DNA from: Marinomonas posidonica IVIA-Po-181
GTDB taxonomy: Bacteria; Pseudomonadota; Gammaproteobacteria; Pseudomonadales; Marinomonadaceae
Direction: 5' to 3'
DNA: 64,000 bases
NCBI RefSeq assembly: GCF_000214215.1
Contig: NC_015559.1
Location: 3,645,001-3,709,000, forward strand
Part shown: positions 4,349 through 55,616 of the stretch, one piece after another
Numbering within the stretch: position 1 is the stretch's first letter
How the letters are laid out: each line of letters begins with the position of its first letter
The notes under the pieces: model-generated
Told to the model about the DNA's origin: nothing
What the model saw: the letters and a program-made list of their open reading frames with translations, nothing else
Database searches by the model: none
Position numbers and translations under genes: made by a program

Positions 4349-4407
4349 AAATCCCCACATTTACTGCACCAAATAACACTCAAGCATTCTGTAGAGAATG
4401 CCAAAAT

Positions 4408-4983
4408 TTAACGTTTTTGATGCCGCTCCCAGTTTTCTAAACGGGCTTTCTCACTCTTTTTAAACAGCACATAAACCGCCCCTAAACCACCGTGATAACG
4501 TTGGGCACTGTGGAAAGCCATCACCTCATCGATATCACGCAACCACTTATTGATGTAACTCTTTAATGTAGCTTGGTTTTCTGGCGTACGATCACCTTTG
4601 CCGTGCACTATGATGCCCACTCGAATATCGTGATTCATACAATCTTGAGTAAACTGAAACACCTCTCGTCGAGCTTCTTCAACCGTCCGACGGTGTAAAT
4701 CCAAACGAGATTCCACACCATATTTACCCTGACGTAAACGCTTGAATACCCCATCCTGCACACCAGAACGCTTAAATTCCAGCATATCATTTGGGTCTAC
4801 CCGCTCAACATAATCCTTCGATAAGTAGTTTTTGTCTTCAAATTTGCCTTCTAATGCCGCTTTTTGACGGGCCTGAAAATCGGTCTCGCCTTGCTTCTTA
4901 CCCAAATACACTTCGGTCTTTTTCAGCGGACGAATGCCTTTCACTTCCTCGGCAAATAAAGAAAACTCTTCATCCTCAGCCAT
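4408..4983 (-). CDS. smrA: Smr-domain protein, SmrA (YdaL) type endonuclease
   Basis: 191 residues. The Smr domain carries its two signature motifs: LDLH at residues 94-97 and HGKG at 127-130. The rest matches the E. coli YdaL/SmrA pattern as I remember it: a PLK motif near the N terminus, a (L)EFKR..G...GV..RLR.GKY stretch before the domain, and an ENWERH motif at the C terminus. Smr proteins are metal-dependent nucleases; the relative SmrB cleaves mRNA at collided ribosomes, but a role for SmrA is less settled. The gene lies downstream of a strong promoter and a leader ending in a terminator hairpin (5031-5160), so its expression may depend on read-through. Confidence 0.85.
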   Translation of the reverse strand: MAEDEEFSLFAEEVKGIRPLKKTEVYLGKKQGETDFQARQKAALEGKFEDKNYLSKDYVERVDPNDMLEFKRSGVQDGVFKRLRQGKYGVESRLDLHRRTVEEARREVFQFTQDCMNHDIRVGIIVHGKGDRTPENQATLKSYINKWLRDIDEVMAFHSAQRYHGGLGAVYVLFKKSEKARLENWERHQKR

Positions 4984-5030
4984 AACGACTCACCTCAAAA
5001 CTCACCATAATGTCTTATCAGACAGCCAAA

Positions 5031-5146
5031 TAAACAAAAGGCTCCCATAGGAGCCAACACATTCCGTTTATCCCTGCTTTCACCTCAGTGAAAGTCACTG
5101 TTTCACTTGCCCCTCTCGGCAAGTTACAAGACACACTTTCATATGG
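5031..5146 (-). ncRNA. Candidate small RNA or attenuating leader of smrA
   Basis: The minus strand contains three consecutive stem-loops: ACTTGCC/GGCAAGT with a 6-base loop (5105-5125 region), CTTTCAC/GTGAAAG with a TGAG loop (5075-5095 region), and GGCTCC-CATA-GGAGCC (5040-5055) followed on the minus strand by TTTTGTTT. The last is a Rho-independent terminator. A near-consensus promoter sits just upstream (5152-5160), so a transcript of about 115 bases is predicted. It ends about 50 bases before smrA, so it may be a free small RNA or a terminating 5' leader. I do not recognise the family. Confidence 0.55.
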
Positions 5147-5151
5147 GAATC

Positions 5152-5160
5152 ATTATAACA
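5152..5160 (-). promoter_or_regulatory. Extended -10 promoter of the small RNA / smrA leader
   Basis: The minus strand reads TGTTATAAT, an exact extended -10 element. TAGTTG lies about 17 bases upstream as a weak -35. The predicted start is near 5145. Confidence 0.6.
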
Positions 5161-5297
5161 GGATATACATTCGACAACTAATTTTGATACTCACCCGAAA
5201 CACTCGTTGATTCGCACTAAAAAAAGACCAAGTGAACAAAATTGCACCAATAGAAAACCCAAATTGCTCGAAAAGACACTAAATGGCGTATTTTCAC

Positions 5298-5315
5298 TTG
5301 GCATGATTAGTGCTT
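5298..5315 (+). promoter_or_regulatory. Sigma-54 (RpoN) type -24/-12 promoter of the guanidine operon
   Basis: The sequence TTGGCATGATTAGTGCTT carries the GG dinucleotide at 5300-5301 and the GC dinucleotide at 5312-5313, exactly 12 bases apart, as RpoN promoters need. It fits TGGCAyr-N4-yTGCw with one mismatch. The start site would be near 5325, which leaves the guanidine-I aptamer inside the transcript. A GCACCA half-site at 5244-5249 resembles half of an NtrC site, but no full palindrome is seen. The match is by eye. Confidence 0.6.
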
Positions 5316-5369
5316 GATCAATAGGTGTTCGTACCCTTGGAAAGTCGAACATGACAATTTATTCAATAG

Positions 5370-5473
5370 AGAGCTAGGGTTCCGATATCAAAACTTACCT
5401 TGATATGACTGGTCCGAGAGCTTTCGACCTTGATGTTTCAAGGTTACACGGCGGGATAAAAGCCCGGGAGACC
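5370..5473 (+). promoter_or_regulatory. Guanidine-I riboswitch (ykkC class)
   Basis: The conserved blocks of the class are present in order: CTAGGGTTCCG (5374-5384), ACTGGTCCGAGAG (5408-5420), and ACACGG-CGGGATAAAAGCCCGGGAGA spread over 5446-5471. These form the aptamer that binds free guanidinium and turns on downstream genes. A 10-base perfect complement lies on each side (GTACCCTTGG at 5331-5340 and CCAAGGGTAC at 5488-5497). The 3' strand overlaps a TGGC/GCCA hairpin and an ACATGG/CCATGT stem (5474-5504), so these pairings compete and probably form the expression platform. No U-run follows, so control of ribosome access to the gene at 5535 is more likely than termination. Confidence 0.93.
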
Positions 5474-5534
5474 ACATGGCGATTTTGCCAAGGGTACTCC
5501 ATGTGTAACTAACAAACTGAAAAGGTAACTCCCT

Positions 5535-6587
5535 ATGAACTTCCCAAAGAATAAAGTACCCGCTCTACTGTTTGCTCTACTCGCTTCTTCTCAGACTTTT
5601 GCCAAAGAAGACTTTAAAGTCTGCTGGTCAATCTACGCCGGTTGGATGCCTTGGGCTTACGCTGAACAATCCGGCATTGTCGATAAATGGGCTGAAAAGT
5701 ACGACATCAACATCGATATCGTGCAGATCAATGACTATGTCGAATCCATGAACCAGTATACCGCTGGCCAATTCGATGCTTGTACCATGGCGCAAATGGA
5801 TGCATTAACCATTCCAGCCGTCGGTGGCGTAGACAGTACGGTGTTAATTGCCGGTGACTACTCAAACGGCAATGACGCCATCATCCTGTTCGGAGAGGAC
5901 GATCTAGCAGATATCAAAGGTCAAAGCGTCAATCTCGTCGAATATAGTGTTTCTCACTACTTACTCGCTCGCGGATTAGACACCATAGGATTAAGTGAAC
6001 GCGACGTCCAAGTGGTTAATACGTCAGATGCGGATCTGGTCTCTGTGTTTGGTACCGGCGATGTCTCTGCAACCGTTACATGGAACCCTTTGGTGAGTGA
6101 AATTCTCTCCATGCCAAACACCTATGACGTGTTTAACTCATCACAAATTCCAGGTGAGATCATTGATGGCCTCATAGTCAATACTAAGACACTGAATGAC
6201 AATCCAGCCTTAGGCAAAGCATTAACCGGTGCTTGGTTTGAAATCATGTCCAAAATGTCAGGGAACAGTGACAGTGCGAAAGACGTTCGCACGCTTATGG
6301 CAGAAGCCGCCGAAACAGACCTAGCCGGTTATGACGCACAATTGGCTAAAACGCACATGTATTACACGCCAGAAGCGGCTTTAGAACTGGTTAATAGCCC
6401 TCAGCTCGTTGAAACCATGAAACATGTGGCGGAATTTTCCTTCGAACACGGCCTATTAGGTGATGGCGCGCCAAGTGCGGATGTTGTGGGGATTGAGATG
6501 CCAGCAGGCACCTATGGAAACCCTGACAACATTAAGCTTCGTTTCGATAATACCTACATGAAAATGGCAGCGGACGGAAAACTGTAA
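5535..6587 (+). CDS. Periplasmic binding protein of guanidine/urea-type ABC transporter
   Basis: 350 residues with a signal peptide at about 1-23, cleaved after SQTFA. The mature part is a type II binding protein of the NMT1/TauA/NrtA group (CWSIYAGWMPWAYAEQSG at the start, ligand-cleft residues around QFDACTMAQMDA). This subgroup is found beside urea-carboxylase genes. It is the first gene after the guanidine-I riboswitch, so guanidinium is the likely ligand, though urea or an amidine is not excluded. A 13-bp hairpin follows the stop and may set the binding protein at a higher level than the membrane parts. The start ATG has AAAGG nine bases upstream. Confidence 0.85.
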   Translation: MNFPKNKVPALLFALLASSQTFAKEDFKVCWSIYAGWMPWAYAEQSGIVDKWAEKYDINIDIVQINDYVESMNQYTAGQFDACTMAQMDALTIPAVGGVDSTVLIAGDYSNGNDAIILFGEDDLADIKGQSVNLVEYSVSHYLLARGLDTIGLSERDVQVVNTSDADLVSVFGTGDVSATVTWNPLVSEILSMPNTYDVFNSSQIPGEIIDGLIVNTKTLNDNPALGKALTGAWFEIMSKMSGNSDSAKDVRTLMAEAAETDLAGYDAQLAKTHMYYTPEAALELVNSPQLVETMKHVAEFSFEHGLLGDGAPSADVVGIEMPAGTYGNPDNIKLRFDNTYMKMAADGKL

Positions 6588-6597
6588 GCGCTTTTTC

Positions 6598-6627
6598 AGC
6601 GTGCTTTGTCAATCGACAAAGCACGCT
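6598..6627 (+). other. Intercistronic 13-bp hairpin after the binding-protein gene
   Basis: AGCGTGCTTTGTC (6598-6610) and its exact complement (6615-6627) flank the loop AATC. No U-run follows, so it is not a classical terminator. Hairpins at this place, between a binding-protein gene and a permease gene, usually block 3' exonucleases and stabilise the upstream message. Confidence 0.7.
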
Positions 6628-6654
6628 ATCGAAACACTTCAGTAAGGCGTGATT

Positions 6655-7473
6655 ATGAAGAAACTCGTGAATTACTCTCCCTCTCCAGTCAACCAGATTT
6701 TACTCGGTTTACTGCCTTTTGTTGTGCTTTTGATTGTCTATATGATGGGCTCCGATGCCCGTTTATCGATCAATCCAAGTGACAAACTATTACCCTCATT
6801 TGGGCAAATGGGCGACGCCATCTATCGTCTCGCCTTTGAACCCAGCCGCCGCACCGGTGAACTGGTGTTTTGGCAAGATACCCTAAGCAGCTTATTACGC
6901 TTATTAGCTGGCGTTGGCATCGCCGCTATTTTCGGCTTGTTAGTTGGCTTGCTGACCGGTGCCTTACCGGTAATTTACGCCACCTTCGCACCACTGTTAA
7001 CCGTGATTTCACTTATCCCACCACTGGCGATTTTACCGATTTTGTTCATCATCATTGGCTTAGGAGAAGCCTCTAAAATTACCCTCATTGCCATTGGCGT
7101 GGCACCCTTTATCGCCCGTGACATTCAGCGCCGTACTCAGGAAATCCCCTCAGAACAACTGGTAAAGGCACAAACCCTCGGAGCCAGCACCTTGCAAATA
7201 TTCATTCGAGTGCTGCTCCCTCAAGTGATGCCGAAATTGATCGATGCGGTTCGATTGTCTCTCGGCACGGGGTGGTTATTTCTGATCGCCGCGGAAGCCA
7301 TTTCCTCCACTGACGGCTTGGGGTATCGCATCTTCTTAGTCAGACGCTATATGTCCATGGACATTATCTTGCCTTACGTGGCTTGGATCACCTTATTGGC
7401 GTTCCTCATCGATTACTTGTTAAGTGCGCTCAACGCTCGCCTCTACCCATGGAATCAGGAGGGTAAGTCATGA
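6655..7473 (+). CDS. ABC transporter permease (NrtB/SsuC/TauC type)
   Basis: 272 residues from the ATG at 6655, which is preferred over the GTG at 6649 because TAAGG sits seven bases before it. About six membrane helices are seen (residues 12-29, 75-100, 105-135, 140-155, 195-220, 240-260). The EAA loop that docks on the ATPase is at about residues 163-195 (SEQLVKAQTLGAS...VLLPQVMP). It forms the inner-membrane channel for the ligand caught by the preceding binding protein. Its stop overlaps the next start by four bases (ATGA). Confidence 0.87.
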   Translation: MKKLVNYSPSPVNQILLGLLPFVVLLIVYMMGSDARLSINPSDKLLPSFGQMGDAIYRLAFEPSRRTGELVFWQDTLSSLLRLLAGVGIAAIFGLLVGLLTGALPVIYATFAPLLTVISLIPPLAILPILFIIIGLGEASKITLIAIGVAPFIARDIQRRTQEIPSEQLVKAQTLGASTLQIFIRVLLPQVMPKLIDAVRLSLGTGWLFLIAAEAISSTDGLGYRIFLVRRYMSMDIILPYVAWITLLAFLIDYLLSALNARLYPWNQEGKS

Positions 7474-8264
7474 ATCAGCCCCTAATTGAAGCACGTCAAC
7501 TGGGTAAGCAATATGGTCAGGACATCATTCTCGAAGGCGTAAACACACAAGTACACGAAGGCGAATTTGTCACACTAGTGGGCGCTTCCGGCTGTGGCAA
7601 AAGTACCTTCCTCAAAATGATTCTGGGCATTGAGCAAGCCAGCTCAGGCGAACTGCTACTCAATGGCGACACCATACCAAACGAACCTGGACCAGACCGT
7701 GGCATTGTCTTTCAGCAATATTCCGTCTTCCCACACATGACCGTATTGGAAAATGTCATTGCCGCGAAAGGTTTTCAGAAAGCCTCATTAACAGGGTATT
7801 TGTTTGGTAAGGAAAGGCGTCTTGCCCAACAAGAAGCCACCGAGATGCTCACTCAAGTCGGATTGAGTCATGCATTAAAACGCTACCCTCATGAACTGTC
7901 TGGCGGTATGAAACAACGACTCGCCATTGCCCAAGCCATTATTTGCAAACCTCGTATCCTGTTATTAGACGAACCATTTGGTGCCCTCGACCCCGGTATT
8001 CGAGGCGATATGCACACATTGATTTTAGACCTTTGGAAAGCGCACAACCTGACCATTTTCATGGTGACCCATGATCTAAAAGAAGGCTTTCATCTCGGCA
8101 CACGTCTGTGGGTCTTCGACAAAATTCGCCACGATCCACAGGCGCCAAATGCTTATGGTGCGTCCATAACCTATGACTTACCAGTCGGCGAATCGGACAC
8201 TAGAACCTATGACGACTTACATCAACAGCTCACTCACCAACAACAGACCTCAGAAAAGGCTTAA
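7470..8264 (+). CDS. ABC transporter ATPase (NrtD/SsuB type)
   Basis: 264 residues. Walker A GASGCGKST is at 38-46, the Q-loop lies in IVFQQYSVF, the signature LSGGMKQR and the Walker B ILLLDEPFGALD follow in order, and the switch histidine is in MVTHDLKEG. It powers uptake of guanidine (or a related small cation) through the permease. The 45-residue C-terminal tail is longer than in SsuB. Translation is probably coupled to the permease by the ATGA overlap. Confidence 0.88.
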   Translation: MNQPLIEARQLGKQYGQDIILEGVNTQVHEGEFVTLVGASGCGKSTFLKMILGIEQASSGELLLNGDTIPNEPGPDRGIVFQQYSVFPHMTVLENVIAAKGFQKASLTGYLFGKERRLAQQEATEMLTQVGLSHALKRYPHELSGGMKQRLAIAQAIICKPRILLLDEPFGALDPGIRGDMHTLILDLWKAHNLTIFMVTHDLKEGFHLGTRLWVFDKIRHDPQAPNAYGASITYDLPVGESDTRTYDDLHQQLTHQQQTSEKA

Positions 8265-8289
8265 TGCGTCCCAACACCTGACGCATTAA
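8261..8289 (+). other. Intercistronic 10-bp hairpin after the ATPase gene
   Basis: TTAATGCGTC (8261-8270) and GACGCATTAA (8280-8289) pair exactly across a 9-base loop and include the ATPase stop codon. No U-run follows. It marks the border between the transporter genes and the enzyme genes. Confidence 0.6.
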
Positions 8290-8306
8290 ATGAAAAGGAG
8301 ACAAGC

Positions 8307-9023
8307 ATGAAGCAATATCAAACCGTGATTCCACCCGCTAGCCATTGGTCTTTCCGCATGCGCCGTGGCACCCAGCTCACCCTGACCGATGTTGAAGGCG
8401 GAGCAAACGTGGGCATGGTCTTTTATAACCCAGAAAATCTACTGGAACGTTATAACGCCCCCGACACCTTAAAAGCACAACACACCTTCAAATTGACCAA
8501 AGGCCATTGTCTTTACTCAGACATGGGGCGCATTTTCGCGTCCATTATTGAAGACTCTCTTGGTTGGCATGAAAGCGTTTGTGGTAATAGTCACGCCTCT
8601 CATATTGAAAGCCAATGGGGCAAGCGGGATTACCAACAAGACCGCAATAACTGGCAACAAAATGGCCACGATGCCATGTTGGTGGAAATGGCCAAATACG
8701 GTTTAACTCAGGCAGACATCACCGCCAACCTAAACCTGTTCAGTAAAGTCGAAACCGACGACGAAGGCTCAATGACACTGATTGAACAGCACAGCAAAGC
8801 AGGTGACCACCTGACCCTTCGCTTTGAAATGGACACACTCGTTATCTTGTACACCTGTCCACATCCTCTTAGCCAAGCCGACCACTACCCTCGCAAACCT
8901 ATTTCATTGCGATTGGAAAAGGCCTTACCAGTCGCCGATGACGACCTTTGTAAAAATTCACGACCAGAAAATCAACGAGGTTTTGCAAACAACAGCCTAT
9001 ATCACTTCGGACTGGAGGCCTAA
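8307..9023 (+). CDS. DUF1989 urea-carboxylase-associated protein 1; probable carboxyguanidine deiminase subunit
   Basis: 238 residues, one of two DUF1989 paralogues placed side by side. The family is known as urea-amidolyase-associated protein (UAAP1). In characterised guanidine-degrading bacteria the two proteins together deiminate carboxyguanidine to allophanate and ammonia (CgdA/CgdB). Candidate metal or catalytic residues lie in the VCGNSHASHIE stretch (residues 91-101) and in the YTCPHPLS motif near 190. A strong site AAGGAG precedes the ATG. I cannot tell which of the two published subunit names applies. Confidence 0.82.
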   Translation: MKQYQTVIPPASHWSFRMRRGTQLTLTDVEGGANVGMVFYNPENLLERYNAPDTLKAQHTFKLTKGHCLYSDMGRIFASIIEDSLGWHESVCGNSHASHIESQWGKRDYQQDRNNWQQNGHDAMLVEMAKYGLTQADITANLNLFSKVETDDEGSMTLIEQHSKAGDHLTLRFEMDTLVILYTCPHPLSQADHYPRKPISLRLEKALPVADDDLCKNSRPENQRGFANNSLYHFGLEA

Positions 9024-9026
9024 ATC

Positions 9027-9674
9027 ATGATCAAAGAAAGTCAATTTGACGCTCACAACGCCAACCAAAAATACACCGTCGATTCTGGGGACTATTTCAT
9101 TCGTTATATCCCAGCTGGGGCTACTTTTCGCTTCGTAGATTTAGAAGGAAATCAGGCCGCAGACACCCTATTCTATAACGCGCACCATCCCGCTGAACGC
9201 TACAGCGCCACCGATACCATTCGTGAACAAGGCAATGTTTACCTGACCGCTGGCTCGCAGCTGCGCTCCAATGAAAACCAAGTCATGCTAGAGATTGTTG
9301 CCGATACCTGCGGCCGTCACGACACCTTAGGTGGCGCTTGTGCCACGGAAAGTAATACCGTGCGCTACGATCTAGAAAAACGCTGCATGCATGCCTGTCG
9401 TGACAGCTGGATGCTGGCGATTGCCGAACACCCCGAATTTGACCTAGACAAACGCGACATCAGCCACAACATCAATTTCTTTATGAATGTCCCCGTCACC
9501 AGTGCCGGTGGCCTGACCTTTGAAGATGGTATTTCCGCGCCGGGCAAATACGTCGAAATGAAAGCCCACATGGATTTGATTGTGCTGATTTCGAATTGCC
9601 CTCAACTGAACAACCCATGTAACGGCTACAACCCAACGCCGATCGAAGTATTGGTTTGGGATACACATCACTAA
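9027..9674 (+). CDS. DUF1989 urea-carboxylase-associated protein 2; probable carboxyguanidine deiminase subunit
   Basis: 215 residues, paralogue of the preceding gene (shared [18 protein letters not shown]-type segment, [11 protein letters not shown] and the C-terminal [19 protein letters not shown] block). It starts three bases after the previous stop, so the two proteins are made together and likely form a heteromer. Cys residues in GGACATES and NCPQ...PCN are the best candidates for metal or catalytic roles. Role as in the UAAP2/Cgd family; substrate inferred from the guanidine riboswitches. Confidence 0.82.
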
Positions 9675-9692
9675 GGCCATTTTTCTATCCAC

Positions 9693-9743
9693 TCAGTGGA
9701 CGACCACTGACGTATTGATTAAACCGGGACGACCCGGAAAAGG
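9693..9743 (+). promoter_or_regulatory. Guanidine-II riboswitch (mini-ykkC) before the carboxylase gene
   Basis: Two adjacent hairpins both carry the loop ACGA: TCAGTGG-ACGA-CCACTGA (9693-9710) and CCGGG-ACGA-CCCGG (9724-9737), separated by 13 AT-rich bases. Paired hairpins with ACGR loops just before a ribosome site are the defining feature of the guanidine-II class, in which each loop binds one guanidinium. The second stem ends directly on the ribosome site GGAAAAGG (9736-9743), eight bases before the ATG at 9751. CCATTTTTC at 9677-9685 could act as the anti-ribosome-site strand when guanidine is absent. Found by eye; covariance scoring was not run. Confidence 0.85.
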
Positions 9744-9750
9744 TTGAAAC

Positions 9751-12700
9751 ATGTTTCACACTGTCTTAATTGCAAATCGTGGAGCGATTGCCGTACGCAT
9801 TATTCGTACTCTCAAGCGTATGCAGATTAAAACCATCGCGGTTTACGCTGAATCCGATGCCAAGAGTCGTCATGTAAAATTAGCGGATGAGGCGTACTCC
9901 TTAGGCGACGGCCCAGCCAACCAGACCTATCTGGACCTTGATAAAATCCTCACTATCGTTCATCAAAGTGGGGCGCAAGCCATCCACCCAGGTTATGGGT
10001 TTTTAAGTGAAAATGCCGACTTTGTGCGGCGCTGTGAAAACAACGGCGTGGCCTTTATTGGTCCAACAGACGAGCACATGCTGGCCTTTGGCTTAAAGCA
10101 CCGCGCCAGAGAACTCGCCCAACAAGCTCACGTTCCCTTATTGCCAGGCTCAGATTTACTGATCGATCTAGCAAGTGCCTGTGCCACGGCCCAGAAAATC
10201 GGCTACCCAGTGATGCTCAAAAGCACTGCAGGTGGTGGCGGTATTGGCATGCAGCTATGTCATAACGAGACCGAACTGAGTACTCACTTTGATTCGGTGA
10301 AACGCCTTGGTGCGAGTAACTTTGCTGATGGCGGTGTGTTCTTAGAAAAATTCATCGCTCGCGCTCGACACATTGAAGTACAAGTGTTTGCCGATGGACA
10401 AGGACAAGCCTTGGCATTGGGCGAACGAGATTGTTCCAGCCAGCGTCGTAACCAAAAAGTGGTAGAAGAATGCCCAGCTCCCAACCTTAGTCACGCCGTA
10501 CGCGAACAGCTTCATCAAACGGCTGAATCCTTACTGGCCTCGGTAAAATATCGCAATGCTGGCACAGTGGAATTCATTTATGACATGGATACCGAACAAT
10601 TCTACTTCCTTGAAGTGAATACTCGCTTACAAGTAGAGCATGGTGTAACAGAGGAAGTGTATGGCATTGATCTCGTCGAGTGGATGGTTCGTTTAGCGTC
10701 ACAAGAGCCGATGGATTTATCCACCTTGCGAACCTCACTGACACCAAAAGGTCACGCGATTCAAGTACGCCTTTATGCTGAAGACCCTTACAAAGACTTC
10801 CAACCCAGCCCTGGGTTATTAAGCTATGTCGACTTCCCTATTGCCGATCCAGAACAAGCAGAAATGGAGTCCAATACCAAGGTAAGGATTGATCACTGGA
10901 TCGAAACCGGCATTCAAGTATCCCCCTACTTTGACCCTATGCTGGCCAAGGTTATTGTGCATCATCAAGACCGGGACAGCACCCTTGCTTTGTTACAAGA
11001 CACCTTGTCACAATGTACCCTATATGGCACACAAACCAACTTAGATTATCTGCAACACTTACTGCGAGATGATGCCTTAATACAAGGCCAAGTCAGTACT
11101 CGTTATTTAAACGACTTTGTCTATCAACCCAAACGCATTGATGTATTAAGTGGTGGCACACTGACTACCTTGCAAGACTTTCCAGGCCGCCAACACCATT
11201 GGAATGTGGGCGTACCGCCGTCAGGCCCATTTGATAGTTTTCACAGTCGTTTGGCTAACCGCCTGTTAGGCAATGACATAGCATCCGCCACCATGGAAAT
11301 CACCCTACAAGGCCCTAACCTGCAATTTAGCTTTGCCACGGAAATTGCCTTGGCTGGCGCGCAAATCGACGCCAAACTGGATGGTGACACAGTGGCATTA
11401 CACCAACCGATCAAGGTACAAGCAGGTCAAACCCTAAGCTTAGGTCGTATTCGTGACGCGGGCGCTCGCTGCTATTTAGCGGTAGCTGGCGGCTTTGATT
11501 GCCCAGATTACCTAGGTTCAAAATCTACCTTCACACTGGGTCAATTTGGTGGCCATAACGGACGCGCACTGCAAACAGGCGATGTGCTCACCAGCCAATA
11601 TCAACACCCAAGCCCATCCAACCCTCAACTTCCAGAGGCTTTAATACCCACTCTCACTCACCAACATGCGTTACGTGTGATTTATGGCCCACATGGGAGT
11701 CCAGACTTCTTTACCGAAGAAGACATAGAAATCTTCTTCAATACTGACTGGGAAATCCATTATAACTCCAGCCGCACAGGGGTTAGATTGATCGGCCCCA
11801 AACCCAAATGGGCTCGTGAAAATGGCGGCGAAGCAGGCCTACACCCATCCAACATACACGACAATGCCTATGCTTTTGGCAGCATTGATTTTACCGGTGA
11901 TATGCCGGTTATTTTAGGGCCAGACGGGCCTTCTTTGGGCGGTTTTGTCTGCCCTGCCACTGTGATCACCGCAGATTTATGGAAATTAGGGCAACTCCGA
12001 GCGGGTGATAAAGTACGCTTTATCCCTGTGACACTCGAAGAGGCCGTGGCACTGGAAGCAGAACAGATCGCAAGCCTAGACAGCCTGACAGTACCGAAGC
12101 TAGACGTCACCAGCTGTGGCATTGGATCCCCCATTCTCAAAACCTTATCCGCCGAAGAGTTTGGCGACGACATTGTGTATCGGGCCGCCGGAGACCATTT
12201 TTTATTGGTGGAATACGGTGAACAGATGCTCGACATTCGTTTGCGCTTTCGAGCTCACGCATTGATGCAATGGTTAGAACAACACCCATTTGCTGGCATG
12301 AAAGAACTGACTCCGGGCATTCGCTCTCTGCAAATCCACTACGACAGCCAGCAAACCTCGTATACTGAACTGCTCGCCTTGTTAGAAACCGCAGAGCGAG
12401 CCTTGGCGGAAAAATTGACGGAGCTGACCGTCCCTTCCCGAACGGTTTACCTTCCTCTTTCATGGGATGATCGAGCCTGTCAGGAAGCCATCGACAAGTA
12501 CGCTCAATCGGTCCGATCCAATGCGCCTTGGTGCCCAAGCAACCTTGAGTTCATTCGTCGCATCAATGGCTTAGACAGCATAAACCAAGTCAAAGAGATT
12601 GTGTTTAACGCCAGCTATTTGGTGATGGGATTAGGCGATGTCTACCTTGGGGCACCCGTGGCGACGCCCATAGACCCTCGTCATCGATTGGTAACCACCA

Positions 12701-13377
12701 AGTACAATCCAGCCAGAACCTGGACCGCAGAAAACTCCGTTGGCATTGGCGGCTCTTACCTTTGCGTATACGGCATGGAAGGCCCAGGGGGTTATCAATT
12801 TGTGGGACGAACCTTACAAATGTGGAATCGCTATCGTCAAACCAGCGCCTTTAGCCAACCTTGGTTATTACGCTTCTTCGATCAGATTCGTTTCTACGAA
12901 GTCAGCCATGATGAGTTACAACAGATTCGCGCTGACTTCCCCCATGACAACTACCCCATTCGCATCGAAGAAAGTCACTTCTCCTTATCCGAGTACCAAG
13001 CTTTTATTGCCAACCACCAAGAAGACATCGAGCAATTTAAGCATTCTCGTAATCAAGCCTTTGAAGCGGAACTGGCTCGCTGGCACGCCAACGGTCAATT
13101 CCACTTTGATCAGGAAGAAGTCACCAGCACCACCAGCGAAGTCACTTGGGGAGAAGACGCCATTGTGATCGACAGCCCAGTATCCGGTAGCGTCTGGCAA
13201 ACCCAAGTTGAAAAAGGTCAAGCCGTCAAAGCGGGCCAGCTGTTAGTGATTTTAGAGTCCATGAAAATGGAAATTCCACTCCATGCCAGCTGTGATGGTG
13301 TGGTATCTGAAGTGTTATTAAACAATGGCAGCCGAGTCAACGCTGGCCAAGCCGTCGTCGTATTGGAGGAAGAATAA
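9751..13377 (+). CDS. Biotin-dependent guanidine/urea carboxylase
   Basis: 1208 residues, the usual length of bacterial urea carboxylases. Domain order: biotin carboxylase 1-450 with ATP-grasp loop GGGGIGMQL near 160 and the EVNTRLQVEHGVTEE motif; carboxyltransferase of the KipA/KipI type (AHS2 about 465-780, AHS1 about 790-1010); linker; biotinyl domain 1125-1208 with the ESMKMEIP site, biotinylated at about Lys1172. The enzyme uses ATP and bicarbonate to carboxylate guanidine to carboxyguanidine, or urea to allophanate. Guanidine is favoured here because of two guanidine aptamers and the two DUF1989 partners, which pure urea carboxylases do not need. A ligase to attach biotin must be encoded outside this window. 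Confidence 0.9.
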   Translation: MFHTVLIANRGAIAVRIIRTLKRMQIKTIAVYAESDAKSRHVKLADEAYSLGDGPANQTYLDLDKILTIVHQSGAQAIHPGYGFLSENADFVRRCENNGVAFIGPTDEHMLAFGLKHRARELAQQAHVPLLPGSDLLIDLASACATAQKIGYPVMLKSTAGGGGIGMQLCHNETELSTHFDSVKRLGASNFADGGVFLEKFIARARHIEVQVFADGQGQALALGERDCSSQRRNQKVVEECPAPNLSHAVREQLHQTAESLLASVKYRNAGTVEFIYDMDTEQFYFLEVNTRLQVEHGVTEEVYGIDLVEWMVRLASQEPMDLSTLRTSLTPKGHAIQVRLYAEDPYKDFQPSPGLLSYVDFPIADPEQAEMESNTKVRIDHWIETGIQVSPYFDPMLAKVIVHHQDRDSTLALLQDTLSQCTLYGTQTNLDYLQHLLRDDALIQGQVSTRYLNDFVYQPKRIDVLSGGTLTTLQDFPGRQHHWNVGVPPSGPFDSFHSRLANRLLGNDIASATMEITLQGPNLQFSFATEIALAGAQIDAKLDGDTVALHQPIKVQAGQTLSLGRIRDAGARCYLAVAGGFDCPDYLGSKSTFTLGQFGGHNGRALQTGDVLTSQYQHPSPSNPQLPEALIPTLTHQHALRVIYGPHGSPDFFTEEDIEIFFNTDWEIHYNSSRTGVRLIGPKPKWARENGGEAGLHPSNIHDNAYAFGSIDFTGDMPVILGPDGPSLGGFVCPATVITADLWKLGQLRAGDKVRFIPVTLEEAVALEAEQIASLDSLTVPKLDVTSCGIGSPILKTLSAEEFGDDIVYRAAGDHFLLVEYGEQMLDIRLRFRAHALMQWLEQHPFAGMKELTPGIRSLQIHYDSQQTSYTELLALLETAERALAEKLTELTVPSRTVYLPLSWDDRACQEAIDKYAQSVRSNAPWCPSNLEFIRRINGLDSINQVKEIVFNASYLVMGLGDVYLGAPVATPIDPRHRLVTTKYNPARTWTAENSVGIGGSYLCVYGMEGPGGYQFVGRTLQMWNRYRQTSAFSQPWLLRFFDQIRFYEVSHDELQQIRADFPHDNYPIRIEESHFSLSEYQAFIANHQEDIEQFKHSRNQAFEAELARWHANGQFHFDQEEVTSTTSEVTWGEDAIVIDSPVSGSVWQTQVEKGQAVKAGQLLVILESMKMEIPLHASCDGVVSEVLLNNGSRVNAGQAVVVLEEE

Positions 13378-15206
13378 TGAGCATGATCGCACCACTTAAA
13401 AAGGTTACCGACATGGGCTTTGACGCCCTAAGAGACGCCTACAAAACAGGCCAACTGACACCTGAATCCCTGATGAATGACATTCGCAGTCGTGCTGTGC
13501 AATACGATTCATACAATATCTGGATTCATTTACTCAGTGAAGCAGAACAAGCAACCTGGCTGAACGACCTAAAAAACAAAGACCTAGACACTCATCCATT
13601 GTGGGGCATTCCCTTTGCGATAAAAGACAACATCGACCTAGCTGGCATCCCCACCACCGCCGCCTGCCCTGAGTTTGCCTACACGCCAACCGATACCGCC
13701 CAAGTAGTACAGCAACTCATTGACGCGGGGGCAATACCTGTCGGGAAAACCAACTTGGACCAGTTCGCCACTGGCATCAACGGCACCCGCTCGCCCTATG
13801 GGCCGGGTCATAATGCGTTTGATTTTGACTACGTCAGCGGCGGTTCCAGTGCCGGATCATCCACCGCCGTTGCACTGGGCTTAGTGAGTTTTAGCCTAGG
13901 TACCGACACCGCAGGTTCAGGTCGAATTCCCGCTGGCTTTAACAACTTGATCGGTGTGAAACCCAGCATCGGCTTGTTGTCTGCAACCGGCATGCTACCG
14001 GCTTGTCGCAGTTTGGACTGTATGACCATTTTTGCTTTCAACTCAGACGACGCCAACACCGCCTTGGCGGCCGCTGAAGGTTACGACATGCGCGATGGCT
14101 ACAGTCGCCCTAACCCGTTTGACAATCAGACTCGACATTACGGTTTGCGCCAAGGGGAACTCACGGTGGGCATTATCCCGCCTCCGCAGTTAAAATTTTA
14201 TGGCGACAAAAACTACGAGCAAGCCTACTCTGACACCTTAGCCAAACTCAGTAACGCCGGTTTCCAGTTCAAAGAAATCGACTTTGCGCCCTTTAATGAA
14301 GTGGCGCAACTTCTCTACGAAGGCCCTTGGGTTTCTGAGCGTTATATTGCGACTCAGCCTTTAATTGATGATAACCCAGAGGCCATCTTTCCCGCCGTAC
14401 GAGAAATCATCGCCCCGGGTGGCAAACCACCTGCCACTGCCTTGTTTAAAGCTCAGTACCGCATTAATGACCTGAAACAAATCTGCCTCGCGCAACTGGC
14501 CACAGTGGACTGTATTTTAACCCCGACCGCTGGTACCCATTTCACCATCGCAGACATGCTCGAAGAACCCATTAAGCGCAACAGCGAACTGGGTTACTAC
14601 ACTAACTTCATGAACTTACTGGATTTTGCTGCGATAGCCGTGCCGGGTGCTATGACTAAAACAGGCATGCCGTTTGGCATTACCCTATTTGGCCCAACCT
14701 TTAGTGACCGCATGTTGTTGTCGATTGCCAATCGAGTACAGCGTGCTATCCCACTCAAAAAAGGCGCTCTAGATTTACCCGCTACCCCAACGAACAATAC
14801 ACCAGTCGGTCAACCCAAGGTGATTGATGTGATGGTGTGCGGCGCGCACCTAACGGGCCAGCCACTTAACTGGCAACTCACCGAGCGAGGGGCGACACTG
14901 AAAACCCAAACCACCACAGCCGCCAGCTACCGCATGTACGCTTTGGCAGGCGGCCCACCTTATCGCCCTGGACTGATTTTAGATACTGAACAAGGACAAG
15001 CCATTGAAGTGGAAATCTGGTCCGTACCAAGTGAGCACTTCGGCAGCTTTGTCGCAGGCATTCCGGCACCGCTTGGCATCGGCAAGGTGCAACTCGCCGA
15101 CGGCAGCTCAGTGTCAGGCTTCATCTGCGAACCTTACGCCATCGCAGACGCCACCGACATCAGCCACTTCGGCGGCTGGCGCAGCTACTTGGCAAGTTTG
15201 AGCTAA
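13377..15206 (+). CDS. atzF: Allophanate hydrolase
   Basis: 609 residues. An amidase-signature domain (1-450) carries the Ser-Ser-Lys triad: Lys83 (FAIKDNID), Ser157 (GGSSAGSS) and nucleophile Ser181 (GTDTAGSGRIPA). A C-terminal domain (about 480-609) is typical of AtzF-type enzymes and may decarboxylate the first product. It converts allophanate to two ammonia and two CO2. The ATG shares one base with the carboxylase stop and has a GGAGGA site, so the two are translationally coupled. Residues 569-609 occur again as a broken copy at 17426-17551. Confidence 0.92.
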   Translation: MSMIAPLKKVTDMGFDALRDAYKTGQLTPESLMNDIRSRAVQYDSYNIWIHLLSEAEQATWLNDLKNKDLDTHPLWGIPFAIKDNIDLAGIPTTAACPEFAYTPTDTAQVVQQLIDAGAIPVGKTNLDQFATGINGTRSPYGPGHNAFDFDYVSGGSSAGSSTAVALGLVSFSLGTDTAGSGRIPAGFNNLIGVKPSIGLLSATGMLPACRSLDCMTIFAFNSDDANTALAAAEGYDMRDGYSRPNPFDNQTRHYGLRQGELTVGIIPPPQLKFYGDKNYEQAYSDTLAKLSNAGFQFKEIDFAPFNEVAQLLYEGPWVSERYIATQPLIDDNPEAIFPAVREIIAPGGKPPATALFKAQYRINDLKQICLAQLATVDCILTPTAGTHFTIADMLEEPIKRNSELGYYTNFMNLLDFAAIAVPGAMTKTGMPFGITLFGPTFSDRMLLSIANRVQRAIPLKKGALDLPATPTNNTPVGQPKVIDVMVCGAHLTGQPLNWQLTERGATLKTQTTTAASYRMYALAGGPPYRPGLILDTEQGQAIEVEIWSVPSEHFGSFVAGIPAPLGIGKVQLADGSSVSGFICEPYAIADATDISHFGGWRSYLASLS

Positions 15207-15275
15207 CGCCTTAAACAAGGGTTAATAAAAACCAAAAAGCCTTCGTATCTATGATACGAAGGCTTTTCAATAATC
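15081..15275 (+). repeat. Direct repeat copy 1: 3' end of atzF plus terminator
   Basis: This 195-base stretch is matched without gaps by 17426-17620 (offset 2345). The coding part differs at 14 of 126 positions, while the trailing 65 bases, including the terminator, are almost identical. It brackets the monooxygenase and LysR genes. Confidence 0.9.
15235..15267 (+). terminator. Terminator of the guanidine operon
   Basis: AAAAGCCTTCGTATC and its exact complement (15-bp stem, three-base loop) end in TTTT. The A-rich 5' arm makes it able to work in both directions, so it may also end the converging monooxygenase message. Confidence 0.9.
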
Positions 15276-15308: not shown

Positions 15309-16427
15309 TCACAGCAATCCCTTCATCCAAATTGCACTAAGTTGTTTTTTCGAAGGAAGAATTGCTGGAGAAACCTTATTCTCTTCAGTGAAGAAGATCT
15401 GATTTGCTACTGCTCGCCCAGCATTTTGTGCATAAGTTACTTTATCGAAGCGGGTCTGATAGAAACGCTTAAGTATAGGTTCAAGGTTTACAAGATCATC
15501 CGTTTGATCAAGAATATCGACCAAATGCCACGCATCTTCCAACGCCTGACAGGCTCCTTGCCCTGACGTTGGTAACGGTGCATGAGCGGCATCACCAATA
15601 ATCAATACATTATCTTTGTGCCAATACGGTAAAGGGTCCATATCATGCACAAAAATACGATTTAGTGAATCCTGATCGACCTTATCAATCAGCTCTGGAA
15701 TAACGGGACACCAAGCAGAAAAACGCTCCTTCATTTCGTCATACCAACTTTGCTTTGAACGTTCTCTATCTATTTCACAACACCAAGCAGCCGCCCAGTA
15801 ACAACGACCCTCTTCTACAGAAACAATACCAAAGCGCTCTTTGTTTCCTCTAAAATCGACAATGGCATCTTGAAAAAATGCATCCTTTAACGGGCTAATA
15901 CCAATGATGTTGATAAACCTTTGGTAACGTGGCAATGCATTTCCTAAAAAAAGCGTGTCACGCACCACAGAACTCATTCGGCCTTCGGCACCAATCACCA
16001 AATCATATTCACCTTGCAAGGTGCGCACTTCTTTTGATGAGATATTTTTCTCAAAGTGAACCTCCCCTCCAAGTTCATTCAATTTGACATAAAGTGATTT
16101 CATTAAGTCTCGTCGAAGAATCGTAATGGTAGGAAAGCCACTTAGATCATTTACCTCTCCGATATCCAAACGGCTTTTCAAGTCACCGCTATTATCAAAT
16201 TGATAGAGATGCTTAGGCTGTCCACCTAACGCTGCCAAAGACTCAAGAACCTTCATCTTTTTAATGACAAAACAAGCATTTGGCCATAGGGTCACCCCTG
16301 CTCCAATAGTAGAAATTTGAGCTTCTCGCTCAAACACAGTGACATCAAACCCTCGCTGTTTAGCTAAAATAGCGATAGACAATCCCGCCACGCCAGCCCC
16401 AACCACTGCAATATTTAACCGCTTCAT
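15309..16427 (-). CDS. FAD-dependent monooxygenase of the salicylate-hydroxylase/HpxO group
   Basis: 372 residues from the ATG at 16427; an in-frame Met 22 codons upstream is rejected because GGAG sits eight bases before 16427 and the Rossmann GAGVAG motif then falls at residues 10-15, as usual. The second FAD motif GDAAHAPLPTSGQGACQALED is complete. Such enzymes use NAD(P)H and O2 to hydroxylate aromatic or purine rings; the substrate is unknown. The gene is divergent from a LysR gene 111 bases away, a typical self-contained catabolic module. It converges on the guanidine operon terminator. Confidence 0.8.
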   Translation of the reverse strand: MKRLNIAVVGAGVAGLSIAILAKQRGFDVTVFEREAQISTIGAGVTLWPNACFVIKKMKVLESLAALGGQPKHLYQFDNSGDLKSRLDIGEVNDLSGFPTITILRRDLMKSLYVKLNELGGEVHFEKNISSKEVRTLQGEYDLVIGAEGRMSSVVRDTLFLGNALPRYQRFINIIGISPLKDAFFQDAIVDFRGNKERFGIVSVEEGRCYWAAAWCCEIDRERSKQSWYDEMKERFSAWCPVIPELIDKVDQDSLNRIFVHDMDPLPYWHKDNVLIIGDAAHAPLPTSGQGACQALEDAWHLVDILDQTDDLVNLEPILKRFYQTRFDKVTYAQNAGRAVANQIFFTEENKVSPAILPSKKQLSAIWMKGLL

Positions 16428-16538
16428 GTAATGACTCCAATCAATATATTTCGATGTAAGACCTCCTAGTATGAACAAGGTACAATTCAACAAAAATACA
16501 GTAATATTGTTTTAACAGTCCCATAATTTGAGATAATT
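16428..16538. promoter_or_regulatory. Divergent promoter region between monooxygenase and LysR genes
   Basis: 111 AT-rich bases between two divergent starts. LysR proteins normally bind such regions to control both genes. No clear T-N11-A palindrome could be picked out by eye. Confidence 0.4.
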
Positions 16539-51795: not shown

Positions 51796-51826
51796 AAAAA
51801 GGCCGGTGACAATAAAGTCACCAGCC
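51796..51826 (-). terminator. Attenuator between rplL and rpoB
   Basis: On the minus strand GGCTGGTGAC and GTCACCGGCC pair across TTTATT and are followed by TTTTT. A leaky terminator at this place lets only part of the transcription reach rpoBC in E. coli. Confidence 0.8.
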
Positions 51827-51865
51827 ATTTCGACTAGCGGTCGAAATCTGGAAATGCAAGTATCA

Positions 51866-55183: not shown

Positions 55184-55259
55184 TGGCAGGCCAAGAGGGA
55201 CTCGAACCCCCAACAGCCGGTTTTGGAAACCGGTGCTCTACCAATTGAACTATTGGCCT
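55184..55259 (-). tRNA. tRNA-Trp (CCA)
   Basis: Full cloverleaf on the minus strand; acceptor AGGCCAA/TTGGCCT, anticodon loop TTTCCAAA, encoded CCA end. It has its own promoter (55279-55307) and lies 40 bases before secE. Confidence 0.97.
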
Positions 55260-55278
55260 ACATTCGTATGGGCGGAGG

Positions 55279-55307
55279 ATGATACCTAAACATGCTTGAT
55301 TAAGCAA
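55279..55307 (-). promoter_or_regulatory. Promoter of tRNA-Trp and the secE-nusG operon
   Basis: On the minus strand TTGCTT, 17 bases, TATCAT, followed by a G/C-rich discriminator (CCTCCGCCC) as in growth-rate-controlled promoters. Confidence 0.7.
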
Positions 55308-55333
55308 GGGTATCTGCCCAAAAAACAGACAAT

Positions 55334-55354
55334 AAAAAAGGCGGTTAAACCACC
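55334..55354 (-). terminator. Terminator after tRNA-Thr
   Basis: On the minus strand GGTGG-TTTAA-CCGCC is followed by TTTTTT. It closes the Tyr-Gly-Thr tRNA unit before the tRNA-Trp promoter. Confidence 0.8.
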
Positions 55355-55374
55355 CATCTTTTGCGAAGAAGAAC

Positions 55375-55450
55375 TGGAGCTCATGAGCAGACTTGAACTG
55401 CCGACCTCACCCTTACCAAGGGTGTGCTCTACCAACTGAGCTACATGAGC
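55375..55450 (-). tRNA. tRNA-Thr (GGT)
   Basis: Acceptor GCTCATG/CATGAGC, anticodon loop TTGGTAA, encoded CCA end. Confidence 0.97.
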
Positions 55451-55452
55451 AT

Positions 55453-55527
55453 TGGAGCGGGTAGCGGGAATCGAACCCGCCTCTTCAGCTTGGAAGGCTG
55501 AGGTAATAGCCACTATACCATACCCGC
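55453..55527 (-). tRNA. tRNA-Gly (TCC)
   Basis: Acceptor GCGGGTA/TACCCGC, anticodon loop CTTCCAA, encoded CCA end. Two bases separate it from tRNA-Thr. Confidence 0.97.
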
Positions 55528-55530
55528 AAA

Positions 55531-55616
<86 letters not shown>

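Follow-up and report, generated by a model that had tools for sequence, protein, structure and literature searches.

The 64,000-nucleotide (nt) stretch of the Marinomonas posidonica IVIA-Po-181 genome considered here (NC_015559.1, positions 3,645,001 to 3,709,000; hereafter the window) carries an operon with a guanidine-I (Gd-I, ykkC) riboswitch aptamer in its leader, ahead of the genes for an ATP-binding cassette (ABC) importer and the proteins UAAP1 and UAAP2, and a guanidine-II (Gd-II, mini-ykkC) aptamer before the guanidine carboxylase gene, gca. With a probability of roughly 0.7, we read this as an operon for guanidine assimilation, of the known guanidine carboxylase type, that guanidine switches on at two points along a single mRNA, the full explanation including a translational Gd-I. 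If true, this would be two-point translational control, with each riboswitch class opening its own gene. The layout itself has already been described and is not new, so the surprise is small; what is offered here is an explanation for a second guanidine switch inside an operon already headed by one. The gene-order pattern among relatives and the predicted translational Gd-I leader together give a concrete and testable reason for the second switch, and both results cast doubt on termination as the presumed mode of action of Gd-I in operons of this kind.

Both aptamers are real and correctly identified. A cmscan search of the whole window with Rfam models at their curated cut-offs placed the Gd-I aptamer at 5363-5472 on the + strand (RF00442, 94.9 bits against a cut-off of 63, E 6e-16) and the Gd-II aptamer, with its two ACGA-loop hairpins, at 9694-9737 on the same strand (RF01068, 35.6 bits against 32, E 0.002). 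The matches are full length and uncut (model positions 1-107 and 1-48, respectively), and each model has a single match in the one-contig 3.9 Mb genome at E <= 0.001. The initial annotation had proposed Gd-I before the importer and Gd-II about 4.3 kb further on, directly before the carboxylase, and had named a covariance search rejecting either RNA as the result that would refute it; neither was rejected, and the two lie 4,222 nt apart. Between them stand five genes, namely the importer genes and those of UAAP1 and UAAP2, while gca and an allophanate hydrolase gene lie 3' of Gd-II, which itself occupies the 76-nt gap between UAAP2 and gca. A pattern of two ACGR-loop hairpins gave a single hit in the window and none in 100 shuffled sequences. 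Both window copies would be expected to bind guanidine and to act in the ON direction. The interval marked by the initial annotation, 5298-9743, begins about 65 nt 5' of the Gd-I aptamer.

The arrangement is conserved among relatives. In a survey of 390 genomes of the window's order using the Rfam models at E <= 0.001, Gd-I was found in 110, Gd-II in 101 and both in 75, and in 69 genomes a Gd-II lay no more than 12 kb 3' of Gd-I on the same strand, where random placement would by our estimate give about 0.1. Most of these pairs (51/69) are spaced 4.1-4.6 kb apart. Both RNAs score above the curated cut-off in 57 pairs; in the other 12 one RNA falls below it, Gd-II in 11 and Gd-I in one (genome G192). 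The next gene after Gd-II is gca in 62 of the 69 pairs, with the aptamer ending 11-45 nt before its start, and UAAP1 in six (39-1228 nt); in one pair no gene was found. This is the co-occurrence search for which the initial annotation had called. Within the genus, both RNAs are present in 4 of 18 genomes, the window's included, and neither in the remaining 14, a patchiness which suggests that the operon RNAs are gained or lost as a unit. A second set of 80 loci, found through the importer protein and in some cases cut by contig or flank ends, contained Gd-I in 78, Gd-II in 66 and both in 64, with Gd-II lying 3.9-4.7 kb beyond the point where the importer match begins. Loci with both RNAs include Marinomonas, Marinobacterium, Alcanivorax, Pseudomonas, Enterobacter, Pantoea, Thiocapsa and Parazoarcus. 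Because 20 of the 80 loci duplicate DNA already present in the order set, the two sets cannot be counted as independent.

The leader of the window points to a translational Gd-I. In the predicted ligand-free minimum free energy (MFE) fold, the motif ACCUU in the 5' arm of aptamer stem P2 (5427-5431) pairs with AAGGU (5522-5526) within the Shine-Dalgarno sequence AAAAGGU of the substrate-binding protein gene (5520-5526), the core of which is predicted to be paired with the aptamer at a mean probability of 0.71. In the same fold, the 3' arm of P2 and the core, GGUUACACG (5442-5450), pair with a downstream complement in the expression platform, UGUGUAACU (5502-5510), all on the + strand; such a complement is enriched 3' of the aptamer in relatives (window p 0.025). 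The 125-nt leader fragment folds with a z-score of -3.1, and none of 200 shuffles folds as well. Three scans, strict and loose included, returned no terminator-like site in the window's Gd-I leader, which thus lacks the usual intrinsic-terminator platform of this class; an RNA without a terminator can still be a Gd-I riboswitch with another platform. In the mechanism we propose, the 5' arm of P2 would mask the start site of the substrate-binding protein gene without guanidine, its 3' arm being held by the downstream complement, and guanidine would stabilise the aptamer, so that P2 re-forms and the importer start site opens.

Comparison across the order supports this pairing. The locus set comprises 115 Gd-I loci, 69 with Gd-II by the Rfam model (E <= 0.001) and 46 without, onto each of which the window proteins were mapped; the window itself is locus L070. 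Leaders of 110 of the 115 were folded; in these the openness of the Shine-Dalgarno sequence averages 21% when the leader is complete and 37% when the aptamer is left out, and in 90 of them the sequence is mainly aptamer-paired. Co-variation was examined in 101 of the folded leaders (nine had no anchor motif) and then in 43 genus representatives, where the duplex between the P2 arm and its own start site has a mean energy of -12.97 kcal/mol against -10.54 (standard deviation 0.39) for permuted partners, none of 5000 permutations being as good. Furthermore, among the 94 loci that had three or more further genes, for which a looser anchor and script-picked start codons were used, the own start site is the best partner of the P2 arm among the operon's genes in 57, where 15.4 are expected, and the same preference is seen in 22 of 42 genus representatives (7.0 expected). 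The second helix, between the P2 3' arm and its downstream complement, gives a weaker signal, reaching p <= 0.05 in 38 of the 109 leaders examined (5.5 expected) and in 14 of 47 genus representatives.

Several observations weigh against a translational Gd-I. It departs from the usual description of the class as a transcriptional switch (PMC12186494), which is also what is presumed for Vreelandella boliviensis (PMC12508155), and the case for the window genome is a computational one. The per-locus signal is loose: cross-family swaps are as stable or better in a mean of 31% of cases (median 24%), and only 14 of the 43 genus representatives fall in the best tenth for pairing of the P2 arm with the start site. 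The same-genus locus L062 shows the opposite trend, its Shine-Dalgarno sequence being less open once the aptamer is removed (0.43) than in the complete leader (0.65), and in 33 of the 110 leaders it is less than 30% open even without the aptamer. A hairpin at the 3' end of the aptamer followed by a T-run occurs in the relatives L087, L134, L167 and L225 and in the Enterobacter and Pantoea loci L234, L240 and L249, and the same-genus locus L118 appears in the loose terminator list. The strict scan, for which 113 of the 115 loci were usable (no gene was found after Gd-I in two), returned sites at or below -8 kcal/mol in four leaders (L063, L087, L134 and L167), that of L063 lying 3' of the chosen start codon. 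The loose scan returned 31 of 110 leaders, many of the hairpins lying inside or overlapping the aptamer. In the importer-found set, the strict scan gave 3 of 78 and the loose scan, run on 16 of those 78, gave six, including Enterobacter and Pantoea leaders which the strict scan omits. Since some relatives and enterobacteria carry a hairpin with a T-run, the Gd-I platform appears to differ between lineages. A description of a translational Gd-I platform was not met in the accessible text of the open-licence literature searched (PMC12508155, PMC12186494, PMC9481103, PMC7266159, PMC7736828, PMC7544219, PMC5486947, PMC2864571, PMC3766115, PMC9788540 and PMC11410670 among it).

At the other end of the operon, Gd-II adjoins the ribosome-binding site of the guanidine gene: the Shine-Dalgarno sequence AAAAGG (9738-9743, + strand) stands directly 3' of the P2 hairpin of Gd-II, and the ATG of gca follows at 9751. 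In the local MFE fold of the window both Gd-II hairpins are formed and the linker (9715-9720) pairs with GGUUGA, a segment that reaches into the 3' end of the Shine-Dalgarno sequence and takes in its GG. This predicted pairing fits the unmasking model proposed for Gd-II (PMC7544219, PMC5486947, as far as their available text describes it), in which case guanidine would dock the two hairpins and the carboxylase start site would open. A cross-genus anti-Shine-Dalgarno element for Gd-II was looked for and gained no support: among 31 genus representatives, no co-variation with the Shine-Dalgarno sequence was seen for the upstream 35 nt, P1, the linker, P1 plus linker, P2, and linker plus P2 (all p 0.24-0.89), and folds of the linker and post-aptamer segment gave cross-genus p values of 0.25 for pairs and 0.89 for energy. 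These nulls weigh against the proposed action, and with no cross-genus co-variation the Gd-II mechanism rests on the literature. The Gd-II loci used, 75 in the own-start-site analysis and 45 in alignment A3, were chosen by hairpin pattern, so that the 100% hairpin pairing in the Gd-II alignment is there by construction.

Gene order offers a reason for the second switch. Many of the 46 loci without an Rfam match carry a Gd-II-like hairpin pair, often with ACGG loops, between UAAP2 and gca. A model built in this analysis from Gd-II loci, R1, was used to find copies which the order-wide RF01068 search, with its stricter filters, had omitted; it added 20 loci at E < 0.001, five of them in its own training set, raising the total to 89 of 115. 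The recovered copies before gca include L131, L138, L143, L145, L146, L148-L151, L154, L156, L158, L159 and others, and the order-wide RF01068 search therefore undercounts the arrangement. Of the 104 loci that have gca, 88 have importer genes between Gd-I and gca, and 85 of these carry Gd-II; in the other 16 the enzymes come first after Gd-I, and 3 of these carry it (the borderline locus L136, E 0.011, being counted as without Gd-II). In nine of the 13 enzyme-first loci without Gd-II, the segment between UAAP2 and gca is only 14-41 nt long. Gd-II thus appears to be kept where importer genes put the carboxylase far from Gd-I. Counting against this association, the table by genus (37/3 vs 3/5, Fisher p 0.0015) is not corrected for descent, and there are exceptions on both sides, namely three enzyme-first loci with Gd-II and three importer-first loci without a clear one. 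The proposal of the initial annotation that importer and carboxylase are gated separately agrees with these comparative data, both in the position of Gd-II just before gca and in its tracking of the intervening importer genes. In our account, the second switch would be needed because the first opens the importer end only, and the carboxylase, which lies much further 3' and is preceded by a 76-nt gap, would receive its own gate. As a general statement for the window and many relatives in the order (a translational Gd-I with the P2 5' arm as anti-Shine-Dalgarno, each class opening its own gene, and Gd-II kept if the importer intervenes and usually absent if enzymes directly follow Gd-I), we consider this slightly better than an even bet.

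Variants of the arrangement were also recorded. In L079, L081, L089, L101, L103 and L104, Gd-II lies after the importer and before UAAP1, at the boundary between importer and enzyme genes, and not before gca; in L099 it likewise follows the importer, with no gene found after it. The importer proteins of loci with Gd-II at this boundary are only 25-46% identical to those of the window. Genome G377 (C14:464203-472855) has three Gd-I matches and then one Gd-II within 9 kb, and two Gd-I matches occur in several genomes of its family. L248 (Pseudomonas peli) has two successive Gd-I leaders at 4384-5927, each before its own substrate-binding protein paralogue. In the genera Alcanivorax and Alloalcanivorax, model R1 matches Gd-II before gca in L189, L203, L208, L213, L214 and L250 at 43.9-55.5 bits (L203 and L250 being in the training set of R1, as are 12 of the 20 loci shared by the two locus sets); within the available text of one report, A. 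dieselolei and A. xenomutans are the only Alcanivorax species noted to have Gd-II, which there stands ahead of a sugE-like gene (PMC9788540).

In a different account of the operon, Gd-I would act on transcription, or via Rho, and gate all seven genes, with Gd-II adding a translational gate to the carboxylase, resulting in a serial AND with a later and somewhat steeper response. This was the idea of the initial annotation, which had expected the carboxylase to respond more steeply to guanidine than the transporter, and it agrees with the presumption of Sinn et al. for V. boliviensis (PMC12508155), with the usual description of Gd-I (PMC12186494) and with the terminator-like hairpins that end the Enterobacter and Pantoea leaders and those of a few other relatives. 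For the window we regard it as rather unlikely: the three scans for terminator-like hairpins found none there, and the start site is predicted to be masked by an aptamer arm with co-variation across genera. The gain in slope is also only modest. In a product model of the two switches that uses the dissociation constants (KDs) reported for V. boliviensis (44 uM guanidine for Gd-I; 93 uM guanidine and 83 uM methylguanidine for Gd-II; PMC12508155), the effective slope is 1.18, 1.51 and 1.77 for Gd-II slopes of 1, 1.5 and 2, with Gd-I alone at 1. If Gd-II is itself cooperative (n 1.5 or 2), the response gains no steepness from the addition of Gd-I, which mainly lifts the half-point, to 132-142 uM vs 93. 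The steeper-response argument needs Gd-I control of the whole operon, whereas the window leader looks translational, and the product model is void with a translational Gd-I unless polarity links the genes. As such, with a modest slope gain and a product that depends on whole-operon control, the case for a steeper carboxylase response is weak.

The second switch could also matter mainly for ligand range, with Gd-II sensing methylguanidine and the carboxylase being inducible when Gd-I is silent. The Gd-II of V. boliviensis binds both guanidine and methylguanidine, and its Gd-I showed no methylguanidine binding in the range tested (PMC12508155). We consider this role improbable in the window, where no mgdH or mgdL separates gca from the allophanate hydrolase gene (these genes were not sought in the rest of the genome), and the same adjacency is found in other paired loci (e.g., L068, L076 and L113). 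It could further be argued that two GC-rich hairpins in an intergenic gap have produced the Gd-II match by chance and have no function, the element being short and only 3.6 bits over its cut-off. This is very hard to reconcile with copies in the same place in the three other same-genus genomes that have Gd-I (38.3, 33.9 and 31.0 bits, of which the third falls below the cut-off of 32), with the 11-45 nt spacing before gca in 62 of the 69 paired loci, or with the shuffled sequences. Chance or artefact as the source of either aptamer match was rejected on the scores, the genome searches, the same-genus copies and the shuffles.

The operon is a run of seven genes on the + strand (5535-15206), named from NCBIfam and Pfam profile matches. 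It begins with the ABC importer genes, encoding a substrate-binding protein (5535-6587; TIGR03427, 'putative urea ABC transporter', E 2.3e-161, above cut-off), a permease (6649-7473, with an in-frame ATG also at 6655; PF00528) and an ATP-binding protein (7470-8264; PF00005, matched in both NCBIfam and Pfam). UAAP1 (8307-9023; TIGR03425, E 2.2e-95) and UAAP2 (9027-9674; TIGR03424, E 1.4e-97) follow, both DUF1989 proteins above cut-off and probable subunits of a cgdA/B-type carboxyguanidine deiminase. Their place in the operon, compared with that of cgdA/B in the published account (PMC12508155), is consistent with this predicted function. The carboxylase gene gca (9751-13377; TIGR02712, named urea carboxylase, 1822.5 bits) overlaps the allophanate hydrolase gene (13377-15206; TIGR02713, above cut-off) at position 13377. 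Transcription of the seven genes as one unit is likely, since intergenic gaps are at most 76 nt and a promoter scan of the window listed no + strand site of sigma-70-like type from 8592 to 10930. Asp713 of the carboxylase aligns with Asn1330 of K. lactis urea amidolyase (alignment to 5i8i); Asp at this position is reported to separate guanidine from urea carboxylases (PMC11410670), the latter having Asn (PMC12186494). The guanidine-type Asp is present in 102 of the 104 loci with gca, the motif not being found in two. With this residue at the guanidine-type position, the 'urea' gene names are probably an old misnomer and the operon probably serves guanidine.

Downstream of the operon, a strong terminator-like hairpin with a T tail lies on the minus strand at 15231-15271, between the operon and a convergent gene (15309-16493) for a FAD-dependent monooxygenase related to the urate hydroxylase HpxO, though below the cut-off of that family. 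Elsewhere in the window, there is a match to the Pseudomonas small RNA P26 at 51800-51857 on the minus strand (39.1 bits against a cut-off of 36), and a cluster of four tRNAs at 55187-55614, also on the minus strand, about 3.3 kb beyond it.

The closest described system is the guanidine operon of V. boliviensis, which is headed by Gd-I and has Gd-II just ahead of gca. Its authors (Sinn et al., 2025, Nat Commun, PMC12508155) call the layout 'like in several other bacteria' and cite Nelson et al., 2017 for the co-occurrence of both classes, and the operon's proteins are strongly raised on guanidine. In addition, a review places the importer and deiminase of Raoultella, Erwinia and Klebsiella under Gd-I and their carboxylase and allophanate hydrolase under Gd-II (PMC12186494). 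Judging from the available text of these two sources, the initial annotation's remark that it knew of no described operon with both classes does not hold, and novelty of the arrangement was accordingly dropped as a claim. The window shares the V. boliviensis layout, with Gd-I in the 5' leader before the ABC importer, Gd-II between the presumed deiminase genes (cgdB in V. boliviensis) and gca, and an allophanate hydrolase gene (atzF) downstream; the V. boliviensis RNAs bind guanidine in vitro. The window differs in that mgdH and mgdL lie between gca and atzF in V. boliviensis, whereas gca and the allophanate hydrolase gene overlap in the window, and, going by the published description, in that Gd-I is presumed transcriptional there while the window leader has no terminator and a predicted anti-Shine-Dalgarno. 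The division of genes between Gd-I and Gd-II is also that described for Raoultella, Erwinia and Klebsiella, although in the enterobacteria examined here (the Enterobacter and Pantoea loci above) the Gd-I leader has a terminator-like hairpin. The window resembles tandem same-ligand riboswitches in that a single presumed mRNA carries a pair of them for one ligand, but the review of such systems requires that no open reading frame (ORF) separate the RNAs and, in its available text, lists none for the four guanidine classes (PMC9481103), and here five genes intervene. The association of Gd-II with gene order and the anti-Shine-Dalgarno co-variation of Gd-I go beyond the accounts given in the available text of PMC12508155 and PMC12186494.

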